The notes under the pieces: model-generated
Told to the model about the DNA's origin: nothing
The model's database searches: none
The model's input: the letters and a program-made list of their open reading frames with translations, nothing else
Translations under genes and position numbers: made by a program
In this document: positions 6,210 to 53,006 of the stretch, one piece after another
How positions within the stretch are numbered: the first letter of the stretch is position 1
Layout: each line of letters opens with the position of its first letter
DNA from: a virus
IMG/VR virus record: IMGVR_UViG_3300037587_000342
Coordinates: 1-55,186 of that record
Strand: one strand, 5' to 3'
DNA: 55,186 nucleotides

Positions 6210-6430
6210 CGGCGACCTACAAGCCCGGCGAGAAGGACCCGACCGCCATGCTCTGTGTGACGTGCCCCAGCTGCGGGGCCAAGCCGAGCGAGCCCTGTAC
6301 GAACTTCCGAACCGGAGAGCCCCTTGGAGCGATCCACTCACATGGACCCCGTGGTCGCGCCCTCTTCCGCCGAATGCATCCAGATCGCCATGAGGCCGCA
6401 CTGGCACCAGGAGCGTCCAATGACCTGTAG
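6206..6430 (+). CDS. Phage zinc-finger protein of the CPxCxAxPxxPC type (74 aa)
   Basis: GTG start overlapping the previous stop (GTGA). The core VTCPSCGAKPSEPC followed by a downstream His (IHSHGPR) matches a small zinc-finger pattern common in phages, CP.C.A.PG.PC...H..R. Four metal ligands are visible. Role unknown, probably nucleic-acid binding. Confidence 0.65.
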   Translation: MTATYKPGEKDPTAMLCVTCPSCGAKPSEPCTNFRTGEPLGAIHSHGPRGRALFRRMHPDRHEAALAPGASNDL

Positions 6431-6677
6431 CTACCCAGGTTGCCAGGAGCCCGGATTCTACGCGGAGGCCGGCAGCGATCGCCGCTGGTGCATCAAGCAC
6501 CGCCCCAAGAACCCTCCGGCACCCTGCGACTTCATCGTGAAGAGCGACCCGGTCGAGCGGTGCGGCACCATGGAGGACACGATCTGGTTCCGGACCCCTG
6601 GGGGCGTGGAGTTGATCCGATGCCAAGAGCACCGGAAGGCGCAAGCACTGCTCGAGAAGCCAGAATACGGGTATTGA
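6420..6677 (+). CDS. Small Cys/His-rich protein (85 aa)
   Basis: The ATG at 6420, just after CAGGAG, overlaps the end of the previous gene. MTCSYPGCQEPGFY, then RRWCIKHRP, CDFIV, RCGTM and RCQEH give several possible metal ligands, with the first four residues arranged like a treble-clef or FCS-type finger. No family recognised. Confidence 0.6.
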   Translation: MTCSYPGCQEPGFYAEAGSDRRWCIKHRPKNPPAPCDFIVKSDPVERCGTMEDTIWFRTPGGVELIRCQEHRKAQALLEKPEYGY

Positions 6678-6700
6678 CTCGCTGGATCCCGCGCTAGAAT
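6674..6700 (+). promoter_or_regulatory. Candidate sigma70-like promoter (TTGACT-15-TAGAAT)
   Basis: TTGACT at 6674-6679 and TAGAAT at 6695-6700 lie in a short gap before the gene at 6720. The 15-base spacer is short. A leader with the recurring ACCGGGAGG element follows. Confidence 0.5.
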
Positions 6701-6719
6701 CGGCGCACCGGGAGGAACG

Positions 6720-6911
6720 ATGGAAGAACTGCCAATCCACAAGGTCGAGTCGTGCGGCTGGAGCAAGCTGCCTGAGAAGCTGAACGACCTCAAGACCCTG
6801 GAGTTCTACCGACTCCACACGGTCACCGAGGTCGCAGACGGCAGCAGCACGCTCTACACGCTGATCTGGGAACTCCGCGAGGTGCGGGACCCGGACGCGC
6901 CGACCGACTGA
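6720..6911 (+). CDS. Hypothetical protein (63 aa)
   Basis: The first gene after the candidate promoter at 6674, with a strong ribosome site (GGGAGGAA). Small soluble product with a C-terminal beta-rich half (SSTLYTLIWELREV). No family recognised. The following start overlaps as TGATG. Confidence 0.55.
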   Translation: MEELPIHKVESCGWSKLPEKLNDLKTLEFYRLHTVTEVADGSSTLYTLIWELREVRDPDAPTD

Positions 6912-10627: not shown

Positions 10628-12168
10628 ACCCTCGCTGGCCCTCGGTCCTGCAGGACGCACGGACCTTCGACGGCTTCTGCAAGTGGATCAAGATCCGGCC
10701 CGAGGAGGGCGGGAGGCTGATCCGGTTCAAGCAGAATCCCGCCCAGCGGCGGATCCTGAAGGAGTGCGAGGGCAAGCCGCGCGTGCTGATCCTGAAGGGT
10801 CGGCGCCTCGGGGTCACGACCCTCTTCCTCGCCCGGCAGCTTCACATGATCTGGAAGCGCCAGCACATGCAGGCGGTGATGTTGGCGCAGCGCGACCCGG
10901 ACGCCACCGACATCTTCAACACCGCCCAGATCATGCACGACAACCTGCCGGACGCTCTCCGGCATCACCGGCCGACCAGCAGCCGGCGAGAGATCTACTA
11001 CGACAAGATGGGCAGCCGGATCGGCATCGGGACTGCCGGCGGAACGGGCGTGAAGCGCGGCAGTGGCCTCCAGATGGTCCACCTGACAGAGGCCGCGTTC
11101 TATCCGCCGAATGCTGAGGTGCTGATCAACGGGCTACTCGAGGCGACCCGCGCCGGCCAAGTCGTAGCCGAGACGACGGCCAACGGCGCCAAGGGCTGGT
11201 TCTACGACACTTGGATGGCGAACCGGGACGGGCAGGGCGAGTGGCACTGCATCTTCGCTCCGTGGTGGTGGGACGATCGCAACGTCGCGCCACTGACGGA
11301 GGAGGAGCGCCGCACCTTCAAGCTCACGTCCGAGGAGAAGGTCTGGGCCGAGCCCAACAAGCTGTCGGTCGAGCAGGTCCAGTGGTACCGGCGCAAGAAG
11401 CGGCTGCTGGGGAAGCTCGTCAAACAGGAATATCCATGTACGGATCTGGAGGCCTTCACCGTTTCGGGTCGCCACTACTTCGACCAGGAGGTCATCCTGG
11501 GGATGGCGACGGACCTCCCCAAGCCAGTCAAGATGTGGGACGGACCTTCCGGGAAGATCTGGGAGTACCCCGAGGAGGGGGTGAAGTACGTGATCGGGGC
11601 CGACCCGTCGGAGGGCACGCTGGCTGGCGACTACAGCTATGCGAGCGTCCACCGGGCCGACGACGGAGCCCAGGTCGCTAGGTACCACCGCAGGATGACG
11701 CCCCCCGTGTTCGCAGCCGTCCTGGCCCGACTAGGCCGGCGGTACAACAATGCCCTGGTCGCCGTGGAGCGGGCTGGAGGTGGCCACGAGTGCCTGCGGG
11801 TGCTCCGGAAGGGGCAGATGCACGTCGGCCGGAAGGTGAAGGCCTACCGGAAGCTGTACTACCGTCGGAGCCCGAAGACGAAGGACCGGGATCCGCTGCC
11901 AGGCTGGATCACCAATACCCAGACCCGGCCGCTGATGCTGGCCCACTTCAAGGATGCGCTCGAGGGCGATGCCGATTCCCGGAAAGAGGGCTGGTTGGTG
12001 TTGCGGGATCCGTTGGTGTTTGCTGAGATAACCACGTTCGAGGAGCAGACCTCAGGGCAGTACGCGGCGCCCTCGGGCAAACATGACGACTCGATCATCG
12101 CTGTAGCGATCGCTTTGCAAGCACGGCAACAGCCCGTGCAGCGACCGCCACGCTACCTGAACATGTAG
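10594..12168 (+). CDS. terL: Terminase large subunit
   Basis: This ATP-driven DNA-packaging motor and nuclease cuts concatemeric DNA and pumps it into proheads. The ATPase motifs are an unusual Walker A LKGRRLGVTT (residues about 67-76, the deviant RxLGxTT form without the usual GKT) and Walker B MVHLTEAAF near 161, followed by ETTANG (coupling motif). The C-terminal RNase-H-like nuclease is visible as GADPSEGTLAGDYSY near 335, VAVERAGG near 389 and KHDDSI near 496, supplying acidic metal ligands. Length (524 residues) is normal. The start is placed at GTG 10594, 5 bases after AAAGGA; ATG 10588 is in frame too. Confidence 0.93.
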   Translation: MGRNLDELTKLDPRWPSVLQDARTFDGFCKWIKIRPEEGGRLIRFKQNPAQRRILKECEGKPRVLILKGRRLGVTTLFLARQLHMIWKRQHMQAVMLAQRDPDATDIFNTAQIMHDNLPDALRHHRPTSSRREIYYDKMGSRIGIGTAGGTGVKRGSGLQMVHLTEAAFYPPNAEVLINGLLEATRAGQVVAETTANGAKGWFYDTWMANRDGQGEWHCIFAPWWWDDRNVAPLTEEERRTFKLTSEEKVWAEPNKLSVEQVQWYRRKKRLLGKLVKQEYPCTDLEAFTVSGRHYFDQEVILGMATDLPKPVKMWDGPSGKIWEYPEEGVKYVIGADPSEGTLAGDYSYASVHRADDGAQVARYHRRMTPPVFAAVLARLGRRYNNALVAVERAGGGHECLRVLRKGQMHVGRKVKAYRKLYYRRSPKTKDRDPLPGWITNTQTRPLMLAHFKDALEGDADSRKEGWLVLRDPLVFAEITTFEEQTSGQYAAPSGKHDDSIIAVAIALQARQQPVQRPPRYLNM

Positions 12169-45483: not shown

Positions 45484-45935
45484 GCTTCGTTACCACTGAA
45501 ACGGCCACGGTCTACAAGGGCGGCGGCCGGCGGTTCTTCACTCGCTACCACGCCTACCGTCACGCGGCCAAGGCGCTCCTGCGGGATCGGATGGAGCGCG
45601 ACGACTACGACGCGCTGGTGTCGCCACCATGGATCCACACGCCTGAAGGGGGCGAGGAGTCAGCCGAACCAACGAACACCGATGGTCGCGGCGAGCGTTG
45701 GCTCCGATGCGTTGCCGGCATGATTCGCTACTGGCAGTGGAAGGACGGCGTGACGGCTCGGCCGCGCAAGGTGCCGTGGGTGAACGGACACGGGTTTGAT
45801 TGGTCGACGAAGCGGAAGCCCAAGGCCCTGCGCTGCGAGATCCTGGCCGCGTTGGGGTTGCCGCAGAACGCATCGCTCGACGATGTGAAGCAGCAGATCG
45901 CAAATGGAAGTAACGAAAGGAGACACGATGGCTGA
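45480..45935 (+). CDS. Hypothetical protein (151 aa)
   Basis: GTG start. Starts with SFVTTETATVYKGGGRRFFT (beta) and a helix pair (TRYHAYRHAAKALLRDRME), followed by GRGERWLRCVAGMIRYWQWK. No family recognised. Its last part overlaps the next start. Confidence 0.55.
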   Translation: MSFVTTETATVYKGGGRRFFTRYHAYRHAAKALLRDRMERDDYDALVSPPWIHTPEGGEESAEPTNTDGRGERWLRCVAGMIRYWQWKDGVTARPRKVPWVNGHGFDWSTKRKPKALRCEILAALGLPQNASLDDVKQQIANGSNERRHDG

Positions 45936-46140
45936 CCGCAAACTCGTGGAAGGCAGAGAGCGTTACGAGATCGGCGACGGCGCCAAGACCCGAACCGGCG
46001 TGAAGGACCTCGGCGTCACGCTGGTCTGGGGCAAGGGCCGCAAAGTCGAATCCGTCTCGGTGGACCACCGGGTCCTGACCCGCAAGGGCATCGAGAGCCT
46101 GATGCTGCTCGTGAAGCACCGTGAGGAGAAGCGGGGATGA
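45928..46140 (+). CDS. Small basic protein (70 aa)
   Basis: Start ATG 45928 after GAAAGGAGACACG. Basic beta-rich protein (RYEIGDGAKTRTGVKDLGVT). Overlaps the resolvase gene (ATGA). No family recognised. Confidence 0.5.
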   Translation: MADRKLVEGRERYEIGDGAKTRTGVKDLGVTLVWGKGRKVESVSVDHRVLTRKGIESLMLLVKHREEKRG

Positions 46141-46637
46141 GCCTCATGATCGGCGTCGATCCTGGCGCCAAGTGCGGAATCGCGGTGGTGCGGGAGGCGC
46201 CGAACAAGGTGCCTGAGTGCCTGTGGACCGCGACGGTGGGGATCGACAAGTTGAGTGTGGCGTTGCCGACGTTGCTGGACAGCTGGCGGCTCGACTTCAC
46301 GGTGCCGTTCTGCGTCGAGACCGCGAGCTTCCATGCGCACCGGGGTTCATCGCAACGCAGCGCGACGATCTGTGCTCGGAACGCAGGCTTCATCCACGGC
46401 TACCTGGTCGGTGCTGGTGTCGATCGAATCGAGATCGTGACGGTGGCGCAGACCCGGAAGGCGCTGGGGCTCTCCGGCAACTGCTCCAAGAAGGAGCTAC
46501 ACGCATTTCTGGAGAACCCGTCGGTTGTGTGTGGAGAACGTGGCAGCAACGAGCACACGCGGGATGCGATCGCGATCGCGCTCGCCGGCCACTCTCGGAT
46601 TCGACAGCGGGAAGTTCTTGATCGGGCCCGAGAGTGA
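46137..46637 (+). CDS. RuvC-like Holliday-junction resolvase
   Basis: RNase-H-fold endonuclease that cuts branched DNA during recombination or packaging. MIGVDPGAKCGIAVV carries the first catalytic Asp (Asp8); FCVETASFHAHRGSS the Glu (Glu61); and NEHTRDAIAIALAGH the closing His/Asp (His140, Asp143), as in RuvC (D, E, H/D..D). 166 residues is the normal size. It follows the annealing protein and exonuclease, completing the module. Confidence 0.82.
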   Translation: MSLMIGVDPGAKCGIAVVREAPNKVPECLWTATVGIDKLSVALPTLLDSWRLDFTVPFCVETASFHAHRGSSQRSATICARNAGFIHGYLVGAGVDRIEIVTVAQTRKALGLSGNCSKKELHAFLENPSVVCGERGSNEHTRDAIAIALAGHSRIRQREVLDRARE

Positions 46638-46645
46638 GGCATGAT
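46618..46645 (+). promoter_or_regulatory. Promoter candidate TTGATC-16-CATGAT
   Basis: -35 TTGATC at 46618-46623 and -10 CATGAT at 46640-46645 overlap the resolvase stop. Transcription would start near 46652, at the first arm of the interleaved inverted repeats. Confidence 0.4.
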
Positions 46646-46650
46646 GCGGG

Positions 46651-46772
46651 TGGCAGAGATATGGAACGGACCGCACCCTTCACGACTTCCAAGCAGTCCG
46701 ACCCCGCGCCAGCGGTTCGCCATATCTCTGCCAGAGTGTGGTGCGCGACGCAGCCGGGGTCGGACGCCTTGG
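46651..46772 (+). repeat. Two interleaved inverted repeats (A-B-A'-B') in the replication gene leader
   Basis: Arm A TGGCAGAGATATGG (46651-46664) pairs with CCATATCTCTGCCA (46720-46733), 14 perfect pairs. Arm B CCAAGCAGTCCGACCCCG (46689-46706) pairs with CGGGGTCGGACGCCTTGG (46755-46772), 16 of 18. Because the arms alternate, only one full hairpin or a pseudoknot can form in RNA. Arm B' reaches the GGGAG ribosome site at 46771. Confidence 0.75.
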
Positions 46773-46781
46773 GAGCCGTGC

Positions 46782-47462
46782 ATGGCGCGTAAGAAGCGGC
46801 GACCGTCGCCAGCGTTCCCGATGTACCCCAAGGACTTCCTGGGGGACGTGAACACGATCACGATGACCGCCGAGGAGTTCGGCGCGTACTCGTTACTGAT
46901 CCTGCACGCCTGGGAGCAGGGTGCCGAGTTGCGCTACGACCTCGATGAGCTCTCGGCGCTCGCCAGGGTCAAGCGCCCCAAGTTCGACAAGATGTGGGAG
47001 CAGAAGTTGTCCCGGTGCTTCACCGTAGCGCGCAGCAAACGAACCATTTCGAACCCCCGACAGAGACGGGAAGCTGTAAAACAGCGTAGGTATTCTGCAT
47101 CACAATCCACAAAGGCTAGGCAGCGTTGGGATAACGACGATGCTGCGGCAGTGCCGGGGGATAGCCGGGGCAGTGCCGCGGGTATGCCCCCAACTCCTAC
47201 TCCTACTCCTCCTTCATCTCTAGACGTACGTACGTCGGAGGATCTGAGCAGGGTTCGCTGCAACCGCTGTCCGACCGATGGGGAGCACTGGGGGCTGCTG
47301 TACGCCGGCACCAAGGATCAGACAACCTGCCGCTGCAAACGGGGCAAGGCTCGCAAGAAGTGGTACGCGCAGAAATGCGATCGCGAGGAGCAGGACGCAG
47401 GACGTTCACGCGGGAAGCGTGGTGATGGCCCGACGCGGATCGGGCCTGGAGACGTGGCGTGA
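46782..47462 (+). CDS. DUF1376 replication protein
   Basis: Phage replication-initiator or replisome-organiser family related to YdaU. PAFPMYPKDFLGDVNTITMT, AEEFGAYSLLILHAWEQGAE and LDELSALARVKRPKFDKMWE are the family signature in the first 80 residues. The middle is basic and Ser/Gln-rich with an AT-richer base composition (about 47035-47125), then a Pro/Thr spacer (TPTPTP) and a C-terminal zinc knuckle (RCNRCPTDGEHWG, CRCKRGKARKK). Start at ATG 46782, after the leader; an upstream ATG at 46641 would run through the inverted repeats and is rejected. Confidence 0.75.
   Translation: MARKKRRPSPAFPMYPKDFLGDVNTITMTAEEFGAYSLLILHAWEQGAELRYDLDELSALARVKRPKFDKMWEQKLSRCFTVARSKRTISNPRQRREAVKQRRYSASQSTKARQRWDNDDAAAVPGDSRGSAAGMPPTPTPTPPSSLDVRTSEDLSRVRCNRCPTDGEHWGLLYAGTKDQTTCRCKRGKARKKWYAQKCDREEQDAGRSRGKRGDGPTRIGPGDVA
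47146..47236 (+). repeat. Iteron-like and palindromic sites within the replication gene
   Basis: GGCAGTGCC occurs at 47147-47155 and again at 47169-47177 (22 bases apart); the first copy extends to CGGCA-G-TGCCG at 47146-47156. ACTCCT is repeated three times at 47193-47210, then GACGTACGTACGTC at 47223-47236 is a perfect 14-base palindrome. Lambda-type replication genes contain their own origin, so this may be the origin. Confidence 0.45.
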
Positions 47463-48875: not shown

Positions 48876-49094
48876 GTGGCTGACGTGACCCCCCAGGACC
48901 AGGAATACCGCGCAGGGCAGGCCGTCGAGGTGCAGCGAGGGTTCGGCGACGAGTGGGTGCGCGGGCGCGTGGAGTCCGTCTTCCTCTCCTACTTCGCCAA
49001 CTCCGTCGTCGTGCGGTTTGACGAATGCCCGCTGCCGACCGACACCGTGCGCGGCGCGTTCACGCCGGGCGTTGGGATTCGCCATGCCCGCTGA
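48876..49094 (+). CDS. Hypothetical beta protein (72 aa)
   Basis: GTG start. Beta-rich SH3-like pattern (QAVEVQRGFGDEWVRGRVES and VVVRFDECPLPTDT). Possibly a small barrel. No family recognised. Confidence 0.5.
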   Translation: MADVTPQDQEYRAGQAVEVQRGFGDEWVRGRVESVFLSYFANSVVVRFDECPLPTDTVRGAFTPGVGIRHAR

Positions 49095-49584
49095 GCCGAC
49101 CAAGCAGGAGCAGTGGAAGCCGATTCCGCGATTCCCGCAATACGAGGCCAGCGATCAAGGTCGTATTCGCGGGCGGAAGGTGCTCAAACCGTGGACAGAC
49201 CACGGGGGTTATCGATGCGTGGCGGTTCGCGCCCACAACAAGAAGCGCACGACGAAGGTTCACGTGCTTGTGTTGGGGGCGTTTGTTGGCCCACGCCCAG
49301 AAGGCTACGAATGCTCCCACGAGAACGGTGACCAACTGGACAACCGGCTTTCGAATCTCCGATGGGCCACATCCAGTCACAACAAGCGCAAGCAGCAAGA
49401 ACACGGCACCGCTTCGCGGGGCGAGCGTCATGCGTTGGCGAAGCTGGACGAGAATGCGGTCAGGGCGATCCGTCGCCTAGCCGCTGATGGCGAGTCGCAT
49501 TCTGGCCTCGCTCGCCGCTACGCCGTCAGCCAGAGCCTGATCTGGGCGGTCATCCATCGGAGAAGTTGGGCGCATGTCTCCTAG
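49084..49584 (+). CDS. HNH homing endonuclease (NUMOD4-HNH with C-terminal HTH)
   Basis: Free-standing homing nuclease. Residues 10-30 (QWKPIPRFPQYEASDQGRIR) are the NUMOD4 motif; residues 60-100 (VHVLVLGAFVGPRPEGYECS, HENGDQLDNRLSNLRWATSS) are the HNH core with His79 and Asn87; residues about 112-163 (GERHALAKLDENAVRAIRRL and LARRYAVSQSLIWAVIHRRS) form a DNA-binding helix-turn-helix. The gene overlaps its neighbours by 11 bases on each side and is not inside another gene. Such genes spread by cutting sites in related genomes. Confidence 0.88.
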   Translation: MPAEPTKQEQWKPIPRFPQYEASDQGRIRGRKVLKPWTDHGGYRCVAVRAHNKKRTTKVHVLVLGAFVGPRPEGYECSHENGDQLDNRLSNLRWATSSHNKRKQQEHGTASRGERHALAKLDENAVRAIRRLAADGESHSGLARRYAVSQSLIWAVIHRRSWAHVS

Positions 49585-50692: not shown

Positions 50693-51966
50693 AGGACGAT
50701 GCCATTCAGGCAACGGTGATGGCACTGGACAAGATCAGGGCCGAGAAGAAGTTCAAGCACCGCGCCAAGAAGGCGGGGTGGACGGAGAACGAACCCGACG
50801 AGTTGATGCCTCACTGCAAGGATTGTGATTCGCGGGCGGAATGGGCTGGGGGTGTCCGCAGCGATGACGTTCAGGTCGCGCGGAGTGGAGCGCCGCTCAT
50901 TGGCGTGTATCGCTGCACACCCTGCCTCCAGAAGCACCTAGAACAGCAGGAGACGCCGCAAATCGACAGCTGGATCTGCGACGCCAAGTGCGGCACGGTC
51001 ATCAAGATCGCGGTCGATCCACACGCCATTGAGGCCGGCGACTCCGAGAGGCGCTACTGCCAGCCGTGTGCCGAGGCGCGCGGGTTGTGGCCGAAGCCTG
51101 TGGAGCCATTTCCACAGGACACAGAGCCCCGTTCTGCGCCGAACGGAGGCTGCGGCAGGCGCCTCGCGCAACACGAGGATGATGAATACTGCCGCAAGGT
51201 CGCAGTCGCCACGATCAAGCCTGGGGAGAAGATCGGCAACCCGTGGCGAGCGTGCGAAGAGCACACACAGACAGCCGAGAAGGCGAATCTGCCAGTGACG
51301 GTGATCAAGCGCGACATGCCGAAGCCGGTTGCGCCAGGCGGGATCGTGAAGGGCCGGCGCCTCGGGATCACAAAGTCATCGCGTCTCGTTGGTTGCCCCG
51401 AGGGCAAGACGGAGGCGATCGTGCCGCTGCCTCCCGGAACGGAGCTCCCGGTAGTCCTCTATGAATCCTGCGGCTGCTACGACTGCGGGCTCGAGCGAAG
51501 CAACGAGAAGTTCCTGCAGCGCATCGTGCTGGAGTGGCCGAGCGGGCATCGGGAGCCGGCGCGTGCCGCGATCCTCGATCATCGGCTCCACGGGATGATG
51601 GTCGGGGCCAAGATCATCGACCCCAAGCAGGTCAGCGACCGAGATCCCTGGCAGGGAACGTGGTGCATCGCATCGCTGGAGCCGCGGCCAGATGGGAGCG
51701 TGGCTGTTCGGGCGATGAATCAGCGCGGGCGCAACTACACCTTCTGCGGCCCTGTGATTCGTTGGACCCACGACTTCTCACGCTGCTTCAAGATCCAGGA
51801 TGCCGAACGCACAGCGGCGCGCAAGGAAACCGCCGAGAACCCGAGCGAGGAGCGGGTCACGGCACTTCAGCAGCACGCGGACGATGATGTGCGCCGACAG
51901 CGGTACTGGCATCCCGCGCCGGGCCGGCCGGAGCCGCGCGGCTGGGACCGGAAGTTCACAATCTGA
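50689..51966 (+). CDS. Large multi-Cys hypothetical protein (425 aa)
   Basis: About 18 Cys in groups: HCKDCDSRAE, YRCTPCLQKH, ICDAKCGT, RYCQPCAEAR, GCGRR, YESCGCYDCGLE. The last 150 residues look beta-rich and may form a separate domain (DPWQGTWCIASLEPRPDGSV). Nothing identifies a reaction. The length and number of Cys pairs make it stand out from its neighbours. TGATG joins it to the next gene. Confidence 0.55.
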   Translation: MKDDAIQATVMALDKIRAEKKFKHRAKKAGWTENEPDELMPHCKDCDSRAEWAGGVRSDDVQVARSGAPLIGVYRCTPCLQKHLEQQETPQIDSWICDAKCGTVIKIAVDPHAIEAGDSERRYCQPCAEARGLWPKPVEPFPQDTEPRSAPNGGCGRRLAQHEDDEYCRKVAVATIKPGEKIGNPWRACEEHTQTAEKANLPVTVIKRDMPKPVAPGGIVKGRRLGITKSSRLVGCPEGKTEAIVPLPPGTELPVVLYESCGCYDCGLERSNEKFLQRIVLEWPSGHREPARAAILDHRLHGMMVGAKIIDPKQVSDRDPWQGTWCIASLEPRPDGSVAVRAMNQRGRNYTFCGPVIRWTHDFSRCFKIQDAERTAARKETAENPSEERVTALQQHADDDVRRQRYWHPAPGRPEPRGWDRKFTI

Positions 51967-53006
51967 TGGGCGTAGAGACGGGGATTCAATGGACAGACAG
52001 CACATGGAACGTCGTGCGTGGCTGTTCCAAGGTCAGCGCCGGCTGCAAGAATTGTTACGCGGAGCGGGAGGCCAATCGGCACGGCGGTCCGGGTCGGCCC
52101 TACGAGGGCTTGGTCAAGGATGGCCGGTGGACGGGTGAGGTGCGACTGATCGAGAAGCACCTTCTCGATCCGCTGCGCTGGCAGAAGCCGCGCCGGGTGT
52201 TCGTGAACAGCATGTCGGACCTGTTCCACGAGGAGGTTGCTGACGAGACGATCGACCGCATCTTCGCGGTGATGGCGCTGGCGCCGCGCCACCAGTTCCA
52301 AGTGCTGACGAAGCGCGCAGAGCGGATGCAGGCCTACCTCTCCACGCCGAAGCGGCAGGCAACGGTTCTTGGATGTGCGTGGGAGATGCTGGGGAACACG
52401 AAGTACCGGCTGACGAAATACCGACACGAGAACGTTGTGAGCCGTCCCTGGCCGCTCCCGAATGCCTGGATGGGCGTAAGCGCGGCGGATCAGGAAACGC
52501 TGGAGTCGCGGCTCGACCACCTACACCGGACGCCGGCCGCAGTGCGGTTCCTGAGCCTGGAGCCGCTCGTGGGTGCGATCGACCTAGAGGGCGCTGGCGC
52601 AATCGAACGGGATAGCGTCGGCGGTAACACTCCCGGTGAAGGCGAGTCGTTCACGCGCGGTCTGCTGGACTGGGTGATCGTCGGCGGCGAGAGCGGGCCC
52701 GGCGCTCGGCCGTGCGATGTGGTGTGGGTCGAACGCATCGTGGCAGACTGTGGCACAGCTGGTGTCCCGTGCTTCGTGAAGCAGTTGGGGGGAAACGCCA
52801 CAGATGCCCGTCTGCGAGACGTTTGGGGCCCGACCGGGAAGCACCACTACACCCGGCCATTCGGTGACCCGCTGCTCGACGAGGCGATGGAATGTGATGG
52901 CTACACGGTCACGGACCACAAGCTCAGTCGATTGATCGCTGCCAAGAAGGGCGACAGCCCGGAGCAGTGGCCTGAGCACCTACGGGTGCAGGAGTGGCCG
53001 GCATGA
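51966..53006 (+). CDS. Gp37/Gp68-family (DUF5131) three-cysteine protein
   Basis: TIM-barrel-like phage protein. TDSTWNVVRGCSKVSAGC with KNCYAE gives Cys20, Cys27 and Cys30, the three-Cys motif that suggests an iron-sulphur or radical SAM-like site. RRVFVNSMSDLFHEEVAD, HQFQVLTKRAERMQAYL, WMGVSAADQETLESRLDHL, VRFLSLEPLVGAIDL and DWVIVGGESGPGARP are the family landmarks. 346 residues. The substrate is not known. Confidence 0.88.
   Translation: MGVETGIQWTDSTWNVVRGCSKVSAGCKNCYAEREANRHGGPGRPYEGLVKDGRWTGEVRLIEKHLLDPLRWQKPRRVFVNSMSDLFHEEVADETIDRIFAVMALAPRHQFQVLTKRAERMQAYLSTPKRQATVLGCAWEMLGNTKYRLTKYRHENVVSRPWPLPNAWMGVSAADQETLESRLDHLHRTPAAVRFLSLEPLVGAIDLEGAGAIERDSVGGNTPGEGESFTRGLLDWVIVGGESGPGARPCDVVWVERIVADCGTAGVPCFVKQLGGNATDARLRDVWGPTGKHHYTRPFGDPLLDEAMECDGYTVTDHKLSRLIAAKKGDSPEQWPEHLRVQEWPA

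Follow-up and report, generated by a model that had tools for sequence, protein, structure and literature searches.

Does the 144-base stretch ahead of a presumed phage replication gene act as an RNA element that controls translation, and if so, how do its two interleaved inverted repeats pair? The stretch lies in a 55,186-base virus record (IMGVR_UViG_3300037587_000342), the whole of which was analyzed and is called the window here. The window is about 65% G+C and contains phage head, tail, exonuclease and methyltransferase genes. On its plus strand, a gene for a RuvC-like Holliday junction resolvase (46137-46637; PHROG 1770, E 5.6e-07; PHROG 159, E 6.3e-06) ends with a stop codon at 46637, directly 5' of the leader (plus strand, 46638-46781), which is non-coding by codon usage. 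The leader is followed on the same strand by a 226-aa gene (46782-47462) of the DUF1376 (YdaU/primosomal-type) family (Pfam PF07120, E 1.6e-08; PHROGs 9327 and 3992). Its product is presumed to be a replication protein that probably helps to start DNA copying. The label of replication gene given in the first-pass annotation is fair, but it is indirect because it derives from the DUF1376 and PHROG "primosomal protein" profiles. No promoter for the leader was found in a test that is weak.

Several other features of the window were recorded. Two adjacent frames (8-835 and 1010-1519) have similarity to DNA methyltransferases and are possibly a split gene, and the open frame at 49018-49584 looks, by eye, like that of an HNH-type endonuclease. 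A 30-nt direct repeat that is 90% identical between its copies (10788-10817 and 51342-51371) falls once in the terminase large-subunit gene and once in an unrelated early gene, with the in-frame translation KGRRLGIT at 51342. Three places (6706, 43218 and 53345) share a near-identical 19-nt cassette of the CACCGGGAGGGACNATGGC type, which contains a ribosome site and a start codon. An overlapping palindrome (GCGATCGCGATCGCGCTCGC; 46566-46585) lies towards the end of the RuvC-like gene.

The repeat arms in the leader, given here on the plus strand, follow one another in the order A-B-A'-B', as stated in the first-pass annotation. Arm A (TGGCAGAGATATGG; 46651-46664) is complementary at 14 of 14 positions to arm A' (46720-46733), with 55 nt in between, exactly as had been reported. 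Beyond a 2-nt AA bulge, this helix is extended inward by 8 of 8 pairs, including one G-U, between 46667-46674 (CGGACCGC) and 46712-46719 (GCGGTTCG). Arm B (46681-46706) is located inside the loop of the A hairpin and pairs with arm B' (46755-46780) at 23 of 26 positions, one of them a G-U, so that the 16 of 18 pairs originally noted are part of a larger element. The core of this helix (46696-46706/46755-46765) has 11 of 11 pairs, and complementarity is still 80% when B is taken as a 35-nt arm. As described previously, B' reaches the ribosome site: it covers an SD-like GGGAG (46771-46775), read in the sequence 6 nt 5' of the start codon (ATG, 46782), and stops a single base short of that codon. 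Arm A' falls within the apical part of the B hairpin and pairs locally in that fold. Because the A stem is extended, the two helices would define two mutually exclusive states.

The interleaved pattern is genuine and very unlikely to have arisen by chance. In 55 kb, one perfect repeat of 14 bp is only slightly unusual by itself: when the whole window was shuffled 60 times, 4 of the shuffled sequences reached that length. The crossed pair has a score of 35, and all 1500 dinucleotide shuffles fall below it (maximum 26.5). It ranks first of 1529 tiles of the window and is also the top score in 683 kb made up of the window and fetched loci, where G+C-rich loci and a repeat array (L103) have the next-best crossed scores. 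Taken alone, each hairpin is exceptional, with z scores of -6.2 for A (46651-46733) and -6.8 for B (46681-46781) and 0 of 200 shuffles matching either one. The whole leader treated as a nested fold is unexceptional (z about -2.9; rank 38 of 1101), which is expected if the two helices cannot coexist. The L103 array (6381-6755; Hymenobacter daecheongensis) consists of palindromic GTCGGACCCC / GAAATCGGG units and was picked up by chance with the B pattern.

The two states have nearly equal computed energies. When each pairing is forced in 46638-46790, the A:A' fold has an energy of -70.6 kcal/mol and the B:B' fold one of -73.7 kcal/mol. The gap is about 3 kcal/mol on this stretch and about 5.5 kcal/mol on 46600-46860, and the predicted balance between the states is close yet context-dependent. 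Folding of the growing transcript has A:A' present at 46737-46761, and B:B' takes over from 46773.

Access to the ribosome site depends on which state forms. In the free ensemble, GGGAG is paired with a probability of about 1. Opening 46770-46785 costs 17.4 kcal/mol, the second highest value among 22 gene starts (the median of the other 21 is about 7.5 kcal/mol), and this unmasked cost varies with the stretch that is folded, being 17.4 kcal/mol from 46600 and 11.7 kcal/mol from 46560. The same opening costs 12.0 kcal/mol with A forced and 20.0 kcal/mol with B forced. The SD is partly paired in the A state too, and this state is predicted to be less closed rather than clearly open. A ribosome-sized mask placed on A closes the SD-ATG region further (18.6-21.0 kcal/mol), and one placed on B opens it to a cost near that of the other starts (8.8-8.9 kcal/mol). 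As computed, the leader forms two stable and exclusive hairpins, one of which sequesters the SD more than the other.

The computed pairings depart from chance, are close to each other in energy and differ in how far they leave the SD open, and on this basis we propose with moderate confidence that the leader is an orphan cis-acting translational switch with competing hairpins. We infer that the RNA exists as such and controls translation in the cell. During transcription, A:A' (14 bp, AA bulge, 8 bp) would pair first and keep B single-stranded in the loop. Once B' is transcribed, it could pair with B, and the resulting 26-position helix would displace A:A' and bury the SD. The start would be less closed in the A:A' state and closed in the B:B' state. 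An occupant of B, such as a ribosome moving through the leader, would then open the gene, and an occupant of A would shut it. A ribosome within the leader would be the simplest candidate for the trigger of the switch.

The first-pass annotation had suggested either a pseudoknot or two exclusive hairpins. Exclusive hairpins are best supported because both are significant alone, their energies are close, and SD opening is state-dependent. A pseudoknot would require A:A' to coexist with some or all of B:B', and the compact fold might block or recruit the ribosome or bind a protein, which could be the replication protein itself. The A-B-A'-B' order is that of a pseudoknot, and a rough energy estimate for it (-64.7 kcal/mol) is not far above the nested folds, but the best nested fold, at -74 kcal/mol, is more stable by about 9 kcal/mol. 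The extended A stem also leaves junctions of only 6 and 5 nt to bridge the 26-bp B helix. These are too short to accommodate both full helices and fall below the loop lengths of an H-type pseudoknot if both helices are complete, so a full pseudoknot is sterically unlikely. Taken as a whole, including its partial forms, we consider the pseudoknot reading unlikely.

The stretch could instead act as DNA, as an origin, as a set of initiator or repressor sites, or as a cruciform for the neighboring RuvC-like resolvase. Its position, flanked by a resolvase gene and a replication-type gene, is consistent with such a role, and inverted repeats are common in origins. However, neither arm recurs above chance in the rest of the window, and iterons are absent around the DUF1376 gene, so the DNA binding array that had been suggested is not supported. 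By eye, the arms do not look like palindromic sites. One of the four non-Watson-Crick positions of B is a G-U, which is tolerated in RNA pairing and is weak evidence against a DNA-level role. Overall, this explanation is improbable.

Other classes of element were rejected as candidates. For an intrinsic terminator or attenuator, 45900-47000 contains no G+C-rich hairpin followed by a T run, and for an iteron origin or operator array, there are no repeated sites in or near the DUF1376 gene. For a dispersed hairpin element of the MITE or REP type, the A pattern has 0 matches in other genomes, and the B pattern has 1 and 6 matches with no similarity outside the arms, the six in genome contigs being unrelated. 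The same B arms at locus L007 are in an unrelated intergenic place and were judged to be a chance occurrence.

Could the repeats be coding sequence? The leader is open in two frames, one an in-frame extension of the DUF1376 gene from 46641 and the other an overlapping plus-strand frame of 52 codons (46634-46792), which begins with a GTG that overlaps the upstream stop, ends with a TAA just beyond the ATG at 46782, and could be a leader ORF. If the true gene start were 46641, or if the 52-codon frame were a gene, then the repeats would be coding and would reflect mRNA structure or accident. The ATG at 46641 comes immediately after the upstream stop and has the purine-rich AGAGTGAGG ahead of it, and opening this start costs 8.5 kcal/mol. 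Against this, codon-usage scoring with leave-one-out training ranks both frames among the bottom 0.5% of true-frame windows. The first 47 codons from 46782 score like a true frame, and the phiAX1 homologue begins at the residue that matches this position. Based on the low codon scores and the phiAX1 start, we place the start at 46782 and treat the leader as non-coding. The earlier description of the leader as non-coding is thus borne out by codon usage, although two frames stay open, and a coding origin of the repeats is quite improbable.

The C4 antisense RNA of phages P1 and P7 (RF01695) also occupies a short phage leader with two pairs of complementary segments, the downstream one at the ribosome site in both cases. 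In P1, C4 is a small RNA that is cut from the transcript and acts in trans (PMC5320573). The sites of C4 are 7-8 nt and nested (b'-a'-a-b in P1), an order that allows a continuous antisense duplex, whereas the arms here are 14 and 26 nt and crossed. An Rfam covariance search of the leader found no family above its gathering score and no match to C4 even at E 10, whereas the P1 control was detected. It is thus highly improbable that the A-B half is excised to give a small RNA working in trans, like C4, on the A'-B' of other transcripts, even though this half is poorly structured alone (z +1.3), its target would cover the ribosome site, and the distance from A to the ATG (131 nt) is like that from c4 to icd in P1 (127 nt). 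The crossed order favors a switch that acts in cis.

A cis-acting switch with competing hairpins has closer counterparts. In attenuator-type and erm leaders, the classical layouts pair neighboring segments (1:2, 2:3 and 3:4). As in erm-type leaders, alternative hairpins here set the pairing of the SD of the next gene, but 1:3 competes with 2:4, the arms are very long, and there is no established leader peptide. In the repY-repZ leader of IncI-type plasmids, two short loop segments pair to form a pseudoknot and activate expression. That leader likewise precedes a replication gene, pairs near the ribosome site and has an overlapping upstream frame, but the present one has two long competing helices and a DUF1376 gene downstream. 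The downstream gene belongs to the family found in phage DUF1376/YdaU replication modules, whose members, in contrast, mostly lie directly next to the upstream gene and lack a leader of this kind. It is conceivable, if rather unlikely, that the leader belongs to a class of phage RNA switch not yet described, where long crossed helices (1:3 versus 2:4) compete and translation of the replication protein depends on a passing ribosome or a factor bound to the loop segment.

Comparison with relatives bears on how widely the leader is distributed. DNA similarity searches of phages and plasmids gave nothing beyond chance for the leader, and searches of viral contigs found no close protein relatives of the DUF1376, RuvC-like, portal or major head protein; the collections used may omit very near records. 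A separate protein (51966-53006) matches PHROG 2045 (E 4.9e-91), and some records assign it to the Gp37/Gp68 or DUF5131 family. Many proteins of Mycobacterium and Gordonia phages are 41-50% identical to it, although the capsid genes have no such kin. In four contigs that share this protein, neither the DUF1376 nor the RuvC-like protein has a match. In 10 annotated phages with a DUF1376 gene, the gene is either directly behind the upstream gene or separated from it by a gap without comparable annotation. A family-wide scan of DUF1376 at 80 viral contig loci found a comparable leader in none, and the best crossed score among them (25.5) is within the shuffle range. With 0 of 90 DUF1376 relatives having a comparable leader, these surveys show that it does not go with the gene family as such. 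The first-pass annotation had named relatives that keep the gene and lose the pairing as evidence against the structure. Such relatives do occur, but all are distant, and they say only that the leader is not a family feature.

The leader is a single orphan sequence so far, and its worth hinges on relatives or bench data. If the switch is real, then this phage would control its replication gene by a compact RNA switch rather than by a repressor, and it would do so with a layout that is outside any Rfam family.
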